The translations under genes and the position numbers were made by a program. Of a stretch of 34,467 nucleotides of DNA, positions 21,577 through 24,468 are shown piece by piece. Source of the DNA: Bacillota bacterium (GTDB taxonomy: Bacteria > Bacillota > Limnochordia > DTU087); contig JAAYSL010000127.1 of assembly GCA_012518315.1 (NCBI GenBank), positions 1 through 34,467 on the forward strand, written 5' to 3'. Position 1 is the stretch's first letter. The number at the start of each line of letters is the position of its first letter. The notes below the pieces were generated by a model. It had not been told where the DNA came from, searched no databases, and saw only the letters and a program-made list of their open reading frames with translations.

Positions 21577-22557
21577 ATGGGTGCTGCTCCTTTGCTAGAA
21601 GTAAAGGATCTAATTAAGCATTTTCCTATTCATAAGGGCTTTATCGTCTCAAAGCAAGTGGGGGCGGTAAAGGCGGTGGATGGGGTGAGCTTTAGCATTA
21701 ATCGGGGCGAAACCCTAGGCTTAGTGGGAGAGTCAGGCTGTGGCAAATCCACTACCGGGCGACTGATCCTTCGGCTCATCGAAGCCACTTCCGGAGAAGT
21801 CTGGTTTGAAGGTAGAAATATCCTAGACCTAGGGCGGGAAGAGATGCGGGAGCTTAGGCGGGATATGCAGATTATCTTCCAGGATCCCTATGCTTCGCTA
21901 AATCCCAGGATGACTGTGGGGGACATTATTGGAGAGCCTCTCCAGATTCATGGTATTGCTCGGGGTCGCGAGCAAGAGCAGCGGGTGAGGCAGCTCTTGG
22001 AGGTCGTGGGTTTAGCGAGTTATCATGCTCGGCGCTATCCCCATGAGTTTAGTGGTGGGCAAAGACAGAGGATTGGTGTAGCTAGGGCGCTGGCGGTAAA
22101 TCCAAAGATTATCGTCTGTGATGAGCCAGTTTCAGCCTTGGATGTATCCATTCAGGCACAGGTTGTCAACCTTCTGCAGGATCTACAGGCTGAGTATGGA
22201 CTCACATACCTATTTATAGCGCACGATTTGAGTGTAGTGAAGCATATATCTGATCGGGTAGCAGTAATGTATTTAGGGAAGATCGTAGAGCTAACCGACA
22301 AAGAGTCTCTTTATGACAAACCGCTTCATCCGTATACTAGAGCTCTTTTGTCTGCCATTCCGATTGCGGATCCGACTTTGACTCGAGACAGGATCATATT
22401 GGAGGGTGATGTGCCATCACCAATTAATCCGCCATCGGGATGTCGATTCCATACCCGTTGCTCGGAGGCTAAAGAAATTTGTCGACAAGAGGAGCCGGTC
22501 TTTGCCGATGCCGGGGGTGGACATTTGGTAGCATGTCATCTAGTAAACCGAAGCTAA
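21577..22557 (+). CDS. Peptide ABC transporter ATP-binding protein, DppF/OppF type
   Basis: This 326-residue second ATPase of the importer has Walker [10 protein letters not shown] at 51-59, the Q-loop [15 protein letters not shown], signature FSGGQRQR at 158-165, Walker [13 protein letters not shown] and switch histidine in IAHDLSVV. It too carries the C-terminal domain with [20 protein letters not shown] and a final CH. ATG 21577 begins one base after the preceding stop, and AAGGAGGTCGG lies inside the previous gene, so translation is coupled. It closes the five-gene importer. The SCIFF gene begins about 117 bases later on the same strand with no terminator seen between. Confidence 0.96.
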
Positions 22558-22615
22558 CTTAAGGAAAACGTGGCATGCGGATGATGAAAGCGTGTATAGA
22601 GGAATTTGATCTTAT

Positions 22616-22674
22616 GGGGAGGATGGAGTTCCCCGAACTCAACCAAAGGAGGGAAGGCGGGGTTTCCCGCCAAG
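22616..22674 (+). promoter_or_regulatory. scfA leader with Shine-Dalgarno and GC hairpin before the start
   Basis: The strong AAAGGAGGG (about 22646-22653) is followed by hairpin GGCGGG-GTTT-CCCGCC (22656-22671) and then AAG-ATG at 22675. If the hairpin folds, the Shine-Dalgarno comes within about five bases of the ATG. Upstream, GGGGA (22616-22620)/TCCCC (22630-22634) and GAGTT (22626-22630)/AACTC (22636-22640) are mutually exclusive small stems. Confidence 0.5.
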
Positions 22675-22854
22675 ATGCGGGAACTAGCCACTGCAATGAA
22701 AAACAATGTAACACAGAGACACGTAAGGACTCTCAGTCACTATAATCTAAAAGCTAGTCTGGAGACGGGTGGTTGTGGCAAGTGTCAGGCTGCCTGCCAA
22801 TCTGCCTGCAAGACTTCATGTACTGTAGGGAACATCGCTTGTGAAAACAAGTAA
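22675..22854 (+). CDS. scfA: SCIFF family ribosomally made peptide precursor (six cysteines)
   Basis: This 59-residue precursor of a thioether-crosslinked peptide belongs to the SCIFF family (six cysteines in forty-five residues), widespread in Clostridia. The conserved part reads HVRTLSHYNLKASLETGG, then six cysteines spaced C-x2-C-x3-C-x3-C-x3-C-x6-C in GCGKCQAACQSACKTSC and TVGNIAC. The radical SAM enzyme encoded next installs bonds from cysteine sulfur to neighbouring residues. The start is uncertain: ATG 22675 is used because a strong ribosome site, separated by a hairpin, lies ahead; ATG 22696 would give 52 residues and is nearer the family norm, but has no good ribosome site. A strong terminator follows, so this short message may outnumber that of the maturase. 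Confidence 0.92.
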   Translation: MRELATAMKNNVTQRHVRTLSHYNLKASLETGGCGKCQAACQSACKTSCTVGNIACENK

Positions 22855-22889
22855 TAGACGATAGTCTTTGGGGAACTAGGATAAGACTC

Positions 22890-22928
22890 ATCCACGAGAG
22901 GCACTTGGCAGTGCACTCGTGGATTTTT
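22890..22928 (+). terminator. Terminator between the SCIFF peptide and its maturase
   Basis: ATCCACGAG (22890-22898) pairs with CTCGTGGAT (22916-22924); inside, GCACT-TGGC-AGTGC extends the stem, and TTTTTC follows. Partial readthrough would give excess peptide over enzyme. A further hairpin AAGCAAC/GTTGCTT (22939-22959) lies downstream, before the maturase ribosome site. Confidence 0.9.
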
Positions 22929-23010
22929 CATGATTCGCAAGCAACATCCGTTGTTGCTTACCTCCCACGGATAAGTCCGGGGGCTTCACGTAGCTTGGAG
23001 GTGAAAAGAG

Positions 23011-24468
23011 TTGATCAATATACACAGATTTTGTCAGGGCGAACTCTACTTTGCGGTGGATGGCGGCAGTGCCGGTATTCATCAACTAGACAAGACTGCC
23101 TATGATCTTTTGGGTCTGTGGAGTGAGCTAGCTCAAGGTCAAGGGGAGGGAGAGGATCTCGCTTTTTCTGATCTACTGGAGGAATGGCAAGCTTGGGTCG
23201 CTGATGCTAACGCAGGTCTCACCCCTTCTTGGAGGCACGCACACTCAAAGCTATTCTCCGCCTATGGGACGGATGTAGTTAGGGAGGCTGGTGCTGAGCT
23301 GATTGAGCTAGTTGATCACGGGCTATTATTTCAAGATGATGCGTATCTTGATGACTTGGTAGGTGAAAAGCTGGCGACTCACCCTCTTAAGGCTCTTTGT
23401 CTCAATGTCTCCCACGACTGTAACCTAAGATGCCGGTATTGCTTTGCCGGTACTGGTGCCTTCGGTGGAGAAAGGCTAAATATGCCCACCGAAGTCGCCC
23501 TAAATGCCATCGATTTCCTACTGGAAAACAGTTTCGACCGTGAGCGGGTGGAAGTTGATTTCTTTGGAGGAGAACCTCTGCTAAACCTACCTGTGGTTAG
23601 AGAGGCTGTGGAGTATGGGGAAAAACAGGCCGCCAAGCAAGGAAAAGAAATCCGCTTTACGCTTACCACCAATGGGTTGCTTTTGGATGAGGAAACAGCG
23701 CACTATCTCAATGAGAAGATGTTTAATCTAGTGCTTAGCCTAGATGGTCGCTCTGAGACCAATGACAGGATGAGGGTAGCTTTGGATGGCAGCTCAGTCT
23801 ATGATACCATCTTGCCTTCATTTCAGCGGATGGCCGAGCTAAGGCAGGCCAGGCAATACTATGTACGTGGCACTTATACAGCCTATAACAAGGACTTTTT
23901 CCAGGATGTACGGCATTTAGTGGAGATAGGCTTTGATAGGGTATCAGTGGAACCAGTAGTTACTGAGCCGCATAGATCCTATGCCTTGCATTTGGATGAT
24001 CTACCGATGCTATTCCAGCAGTATGACCAACTTGCCGAGTATTACTGTGAGCTTCACCCAACAGACAAGCGTTTTGAGTTCTATCATTTCAATCTCTCTT
24101 TGCTGGAGGGACAATGCCTTGCTAAAAGACTGACTGGCTGTGGAGCAGGTACTGAGTACCTAGCTATCACACCCAATGGCGATATTTACCCTTGCCATCA
24201 GTTTGTCGGCCGCGAAGGCTACAAAATGGGTAACATAGATGACTGTGTTTTGGATCAGGAAATCCAAGAAAGCTTCAAAGCCTCCCATGTGCTAGCTAAA
24301 GATGAATGCCGAAAGTGCTGGGCCAGGTTTTTCTGTAGTGGGGGCTGCCACGCCAATGCCCTCAGTGCCAATGGAGATATTCGCAAGCCGGATAGCCTTA
24401 GTTGCGCGCTGCTCAAGAAGCGTCTGGAATGTAGTATTTATATACAGGCTCGGGTAGCACAAGCATAG
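23011..24468 (+). CDS. scfB: SCIFF peptide maturase, radical SAM with SPASM domain
   Basis: This 485-residue radical SAM enzyme installs thioether crosslinks in the SCIFF peptide. The N-terminal part (about 1-120) resembles the precursor-recognition region of the family. The SAM cluster motif is C137-x3-C141-x2-C144 in HDCNLRCRYCFAG, followed by the FFGGEPLLN motif near 188 and TLTTNGLLL. The C-terminal SPASM region begins near GCGAGTEYLAITPNGDIYPC and ends CRKCWARFFCSGGCHA, supplying ligands for two auxiliary iron-sulfur clusters. The TTG start follows GGAGGTGAAAAGAG. It is adjacent to its likely substrate scfA, as in other Clostridia. Confidence 0.95.
   Translation: MINIHRFCQGELYFAVDGGSAGIHQLDKTAYDLLGLWSELAQGQGEGEDLAFSDLLEEWQAWVADANAGLTPSWRHAHSKLFSAYGTDVVREAGAELIELVDHGLLFQDDAYLDDLVGEKLATHPLKALCLNVSHDCNLRCRYCFAGTGAFGGERLNMPTEVALNAIDFLLENSFDRERVEVDFFGGEPLLNLPVVREAVEYGEKQAAKQGKEIRFTLTTNGLLLDEETAHYLNEKMFNLVLSLDGRSETNDRMRVALDGSSVYDTILPSFQRMAELRQARQYYVRGTYTAYNKDFFQDVRHLVEIGFDRVSVEPVVTEPHRSYALHLDDLPMLFQQYDQLAEYYCELHPTDKRFEFYHFNLSLLEGQCLAKRLTGCGAGTEYLAITPNGDIYPCHQFVGREGYKMGNIDDCVLDQEIQESFKASHVLAKDECRKCWARFFCSGGCHANALSANGDIRKPDSLSCALLKKRLECSIYIQARVAQA

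Follow-up and report, generated by a model that had tools for sequence, protein, structure and literature searches.

Start codon of the SCIFF precursor gene

By the textbook rule, the spacer between a Shine-Dalgarno (SD) sequence and its AUG is short and unstructured, and gene finders score starts accordingly. The gene scfA, whose SD is parted from the coding sequence by a predicted stable hairpin, raises the question of how translation would begin behind such a spacer, and at which of two in-frame ATGs. The window analyzed here (34,467 nucleotides, contig C267) belongs to a 2.72-Mb assembly of an uncultured member of the Bacillota. In it, the scfA product matches the model for SCIFF (the six-cysteine ranthipeptide precursor) and the product of the next gene, scfB, matches that of its maturase, both above cut-off (Table 1). 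With the maturase adjoining, peptide and enzyme belong to the known SCIFF pairs (TIGR03973/TIGR03974), although SCIFF genes outside the window's family have ordinary SD spacing.

Table 1. Features of the scfA-scfB region, in window coordinates
Feature	Position	Strand	Remarks
SD AAAGGAGGG, core GGAGG 22648-22652	22645..22653	+	AGGAGG-type SD in 10/10 family leaders
5' spacer GAA, 3 nt from GGAGG to stem	22653..22655	+	3 nt in 9/10 species, 4 in one
Putative bridging hairpin	22656..22689	+	Closing pairs 22656-58/22687-89 (GGC/GCC), inner stem 22665-70/22677-82, loop 22671-76
Local hairpin GGCGGG-GTTT-CCCGCC, minor alternative fold	22656..22671	+	-13.1 kcal/mol, pairing probability ~0.02
In-frame ATG, earlier proposed start, rejected	22675..22677	+	Missing in 9/9 relatives
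3' spacer ACTGCA, 6 nt from stem to AUG	22690..22695	+	Exactly 6 nt in 10/10 species
scfA, SCIFF precursor, 52 aa	22696..22854	+	Likely start ATG 22696, stop TAA 22852-22854; TIGR03973, 72 bits (cut-off 50)
Inverted repeat ATCCACGAG..CTCGTGGAT followed by TTTTC, terminator- or attenuator-like	22890..22924	+	9-bp arms identical in 9/9 species with sequence there
scfB, SCIFF maturase (radical SAM/SPASM)	23011..24468	+	TTG start, GGAGG at normal spacing upstream; TIGR03974, 559 bits (cut-off 425)

Leaders were compared across the 10 species (MAGs) of the window's uncultured Bacillota family in which scfA was found, the family being represented by 11 genomes. The first-pass annotation had left the choice between a 59-residue peptide from ATG 22675 and a 52-residue peptide from ATG 22696 to the folding of the leader. 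Its reading of the letters was accurate: AAAGGAGGG occupies 22645-22653, GGCGGG-GTTT-CCCGCC follows at 22656-22671, ATG 22675 lies 21 bases past the SD, and ATG 22696 is in the same frame. The comparison favors the shorter product. ATG 22696 (as ATGAAA or ATGAAG; ATGAAR) is common to all 10 species, whereas ATG 22675 occurs in none of the nine relatives, lies inside the hairpin and has its G22677 paired in the favored fold. Moreover, the insert between the SD and 22696 varies from 42 to 55 nt among the species, and because these lengths change without keeping the frame (they are not conserved modulo 3), the stretch upstream of ATG 22696 is non-coding. The hairpin analysis as a whole settles the likely start of the window's SCIFF precursor as ATG 22696 (52 aa). 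Genome G007 also carries, on a different contig (L041; G007:C189), a further SCIFF-like sequence that is more distant (57% identity) and represents either a paralog or a binning contaminant.

Predicted fold of the scfA leader

From the SD onward, the leader reads AAAGGAGGG, AA, GGCGGGGTTTCCCGCCAAGATGCGGGAACTAGCC, ACTGCA and ATG. The window's SD-to-start insert folds at -20.5 kcal/mol compared to a mean of -12.5 kcal/mol for shuffled sequences, 1.3% of which fold as low. For the nine orthologous inserts, which differ in sequence, 0 to 2.2% of dinucleotide shuffles fold as stably in each species, and folding energies across all 10 species range from -14.5 to -21.9 kcal/mol (≤2.2% of shuffles as low per species). 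By these predictions, the hairpin between the SD and the scfA start is more than a product of chance. In the window's ensemble fold the SD is predicted to be unpaired at 0.94 to 1.0 and the AUG at 0.75 to 0.98, and the inner stem of the hairpin pairs with a probability of approximately 0.9 to 0.98.

The earlier proposal that a hairpin fills the gap and that folding brings the SD near the start is sound in principle, but the conserved hairpin is the one at 22656-22689. The local GGCGGG/CCCGCC stem originally drawn, which was to bring the SD to about five bases from ATG 22675, competes with it and is predicted at a probability of only ∼0.02. Two small stems placed further upstream (22616-22640) can likewise be drawn but are without counterpart in relatives; apart from the window species, just two relatives have this stretch, and theirs folds differently. 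The window's unconstrained minimum free energy structure shifts the outer register to 22657-60/22691-94, leaving only the A before the AUG free, and exceeds the family register in stability by 1.8 kcal/mol; with the 4 nt before the AUG held open, as under a bound ribosome, the window fold returns to the family register.

Conservation and covariation of the hairpin

The SD, the hairpin and ATGAAR occur in the same order in all 10 species. In each relative the insert folds into a single hairpin, with 3 nt between GGAGG and the stem (4 nt in one species) and exactly 6 nt between the stem and the AUG. Hairpin lengths range from 33 to 46 nt and raw GGAGG-to-AUG spacing from 42 to 55 nt (a spread of 13 nt), while effective spacing is 9 nt in nine species and 10 nt in one. 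Normal GGAGG-to-ATG spacing in the family peaks at 7 to 9 nt (538 genes of genome G004).

The stem was recovered unprompted by RNAalifold from a plain MAFFT alignment of the ten leaders. Compensatory changes in relatives, which the first-pass annotation had named as a check on its hairpin, were found, with 7 of 11 stem pairs in this alignment changed on both sides. Paired cells made up 82.7% of the total compared to 26 to 53% with the partner slid by 1 to 3 columns (a control that retains the relatedness of the species), and the covariation score of 0.368 (0.205 for shuffles) was reached by none of 500 shuffles, a count that is not a probability because the species are related. A covariance model matched the window hairpin at 57.9 bits, the window itself being a training sequence. 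Neither the sequence nor the length of the loop is conserved, and the arms vary freely with pairing kept. What is kept is the pairing together with the two flanking distances, not arm or loop sequence, which fits a device for shortening the spacer and not a ligand or protein site.

A probable hairpin-bridged ribosome binding site

For scfA, four features of a split ribosome binding site of the T4 gene 25/38 type were found: an over-long SD distance, a stable structure predicted to leave SD and AUG free, an effective spacing within range, and compensatory change. On these comparative grounds, the scfA leader very probably contains a split ribosome binding site bridged by a hairpin. In this reading, the 30S subunit would pair with AAAGGAGG (22645-22652) while the 34-nt hairpin remained folded and looped out. 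The 3 nt before the stem and the 6 nt after it would then place AUG 22696 at an effective 9 nt from GGAGG, a distance usual for the lineage, where 7 to 9 nt is commonest. Selection would preserve the stem and both flanking distances, not the sequence of the stem or the loop, and the device would be reused within this bacterial family before unrelated genes. Sequence, geometry, covariation and recurrence were observed; from them we infer that a ribosome bound to the SD leaves the hairpin folded and initiates at 22696, and that scfA translation relies on the hairpin.

A stable structure in a leader might also be a switch (a thermometer, protein operator or ligand sensor), with SCIFF synthesis set by its folding state, as the first-pass annotation had suggested, and in the grpE relatives described below the SD GGAGAG can pair with CUUUUC just before the AUG, which suits a thermometer. 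For scfA we consider such a regulatory leader unlikely, since SD and AUG are predicted to be mostly open when folded, the variable loop and freely changing arms are unlike a ligand or protein site, and the same layout stands before genes of unrelated function. Against the Rfam 15 covariance models, positions 22400-23100 had no hit at E ≤ 1, and the whole window at gathering scores had only a tRNA, with no riboswitch or leader family. There was no sign of a switch: because the SD is predicted to be unpaired and is not sequestered as in an RNA thermometer, the fold looks constitutive rather than regulatory.

A stable hairpin near the 5' end of an mRNA can protect the mRNA, and the scfA hairpin could be a stability or processing element that happens to sit in the spacer, with translation unfolding it or taking another route. 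The chances of this seem slim, as such an element has no need of flanks of exactly 3 nt (to GGAGG) and 6 nt (to the AUG) in ten species whose hairpins differ in length. Slimmer still is the prospect of translation from ATG 22675 through the short local hairpin. The frame is open and that hairpin would give an effective spacing of 5 nt, but this start is absent from every relative, the upstream stretch changes length out of frame, and the stem on which it relies would hardly form while G22677 is paired in the favored fold.

Recurrence before other genes

A covariance model (R1) trained on the ten scfA leaders was run on the 11 family genomes. Its second tier of matches contained grpE in eight genomes, galE, queA and an orthologous lipoprotein gene in two genomes (gene names here are our reading of the translations), each with an SD, a hairpin, 6 to 7 nt and an AUG. 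A search with the pattern AGGAGGNNNGGC..GCCNNNNNNATG returned eight scfA leaders and two convincing new sites (gmhA and DUF1292); its remaining matches appear to fall within coding sequence. A mixed-gene MAFFT alignment misaligned the 3' arms and was replaced by a model-fitted alignment. A broader covariance model (R2), run on 40 genomes (11 of the family, 29 others), gave 44 matches at E ≤ 0.1 in the family genomes compared to 6 in the others, or 19 compared to 4 without training sequences. The matches that were read include grpE in two more genomes, galE in four genomes of genus g6, and genes for a 120-aa membrane protein, a chromate-transporter-like protein, a DRTGG-domain protein and CinA.

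Candidate bridged sites thus precede grpE in 10 family genomes, galE in at least five, the 120-aa membrane protein gene in at least five and the chrA-like (chromate-transporter-like) gene in two, as well as queA in 5 of 11 genomes and the lipoprotein gene in 4 of 6 (orthologs of these last two were found by protein alone, and their hairpins differ). Further bridged genes are gmhA, DUF1292, floA, a ytkL-like gene, cinA and the DRTGG-domain gene, and for several bridged genes the hairpins differ between species. The putative layout is therefore not specific to SCIFF. Across 39 bridged sites collected, effective spacing was 8 to 12 nt (exactly 9 in 22) and raw spacing 33 to 57 nt, although sites found by model or pattern were partly selected for this geometry, unlike those of scfA and some of queA and the lipoprotein gene.

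The galE genes of genus g6 have a GUG start behind the bridged site, and their hairpins, which vary by species, are long and almost perfect. In the grpE leaders of the 10 family genomes, the SD of the bridged site is also able to pair with CUUUUC, and because grpE is a heat-shock gene, these leaders could be RNA thermometers.

Distribution within and outside the family

A survey covered ATG starts without a strong SD at normal spacing but with one 22 to 69 nt upstream, outside other genes; expectations came from shuffles of the same segments. A first, looser version was too permissive and was swamped by internal GTG and TTG starts, and the criteria were then tightened. In 682 kb of genome G004 (a quarter), 14 hairpins of the right geometry were observed compared to 2.7 expected, some of the 14 being false (one before scfB takes its GGAGG from the intercistronic inverted repeat). 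In ∼1.4 Mb from five genomes outside the family (G011, G023, G050, G015 and G054, of which G015 is a weak control with few strong SDs), 5 were observed compared to 4.4 expected. This enrichment is suggestive rather than a clean test, because G004 itself guided the tuning of the survey criteria and family members served as training sequences for the models.

Clear bridged cases beyond the family were an HtrA-like gene in three genomes of family f3, two genes in G011 and one in G023. The HtrA-like protease genes carry hairpins that differ by species, and these sites imply that the device extends beyond the window's family. For scfA itself, 56 of 91 leaders outside the family had an ordinary SD by automatic count, and most of the remainder proved on reading to have one too, having been missed by the count through its anchor or weaker SDs. 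A bridge is thus not essential to scfA and, given this distribution, looks derived within the family. We see an even chance that this family of uncultured Bacillota uses bridged sites recurrently, to initiate translation of at least a dozen unrelated genes in each genome, and that hairpins are repeatedly gained and rewritten around an effective spacing of ∼9 nt; the ribosomes of the family may tolerate a folded spacer unusually well or be tuned to one.

Relation to known systems

Two known examples of such a bridge were found in the open-access literature, both in phage T4. According to a review (PMC3014915, citing Nivinskas 1999 and Malys & Nivinskas 2009), intervening RNA structure cuts SD-AUG spacing from 22 to 5 nt in gene 38 and from 27 to 11 nt in gene 25; the structures are conserved in close phages, and breaking them lowers initiation. 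The scfA leader would share with these an extended spacing shortened by RNA structure. The T4 cases are phage genes with short inserts, whereas scfA is a chromosomal RiPP precursor gene with 33- to 46-nt hairpins, compensatory changes over ten species, fixed flanks, and a layout that recurs before many unrelated genes of one family. The split site of Escherichia coli thrS (discussed in PMC3936740) is similar in that a long hairpin is thought to be accommodated by the ribosome without unfolding; there, however, the hairpin parts an upstream single-stranded landing region from the SD and start region, while that of scfA lies between SD and AUG. Among the open-access titles and abstracts listed, none described SD-hairpin-AUG sites in use by a bacterial lineage or a chromosomal gene family, which is weak evidence of novelty because the search was confined to that literature.

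In scfA, compensatory change maintains the putative bridge on a bacterial chromosome, and the layout recurs across unrelated genes and species. Such recurrence would offer dozens of natural variants for studying how the 30S subunit accommodates a folded spacer and how effective spacing is measured. Because gene finders assume short, unstructured spacers, bridged sites also invite misannotated starts and missed small genes.

Intergenic repeat between scfA and scfB

Whereas the arms of the scfA hairpin covary, those of the inverted repeat downstream of scfA (Table 1) are fixed in sequence, as would suit an attenuator or a protein site.
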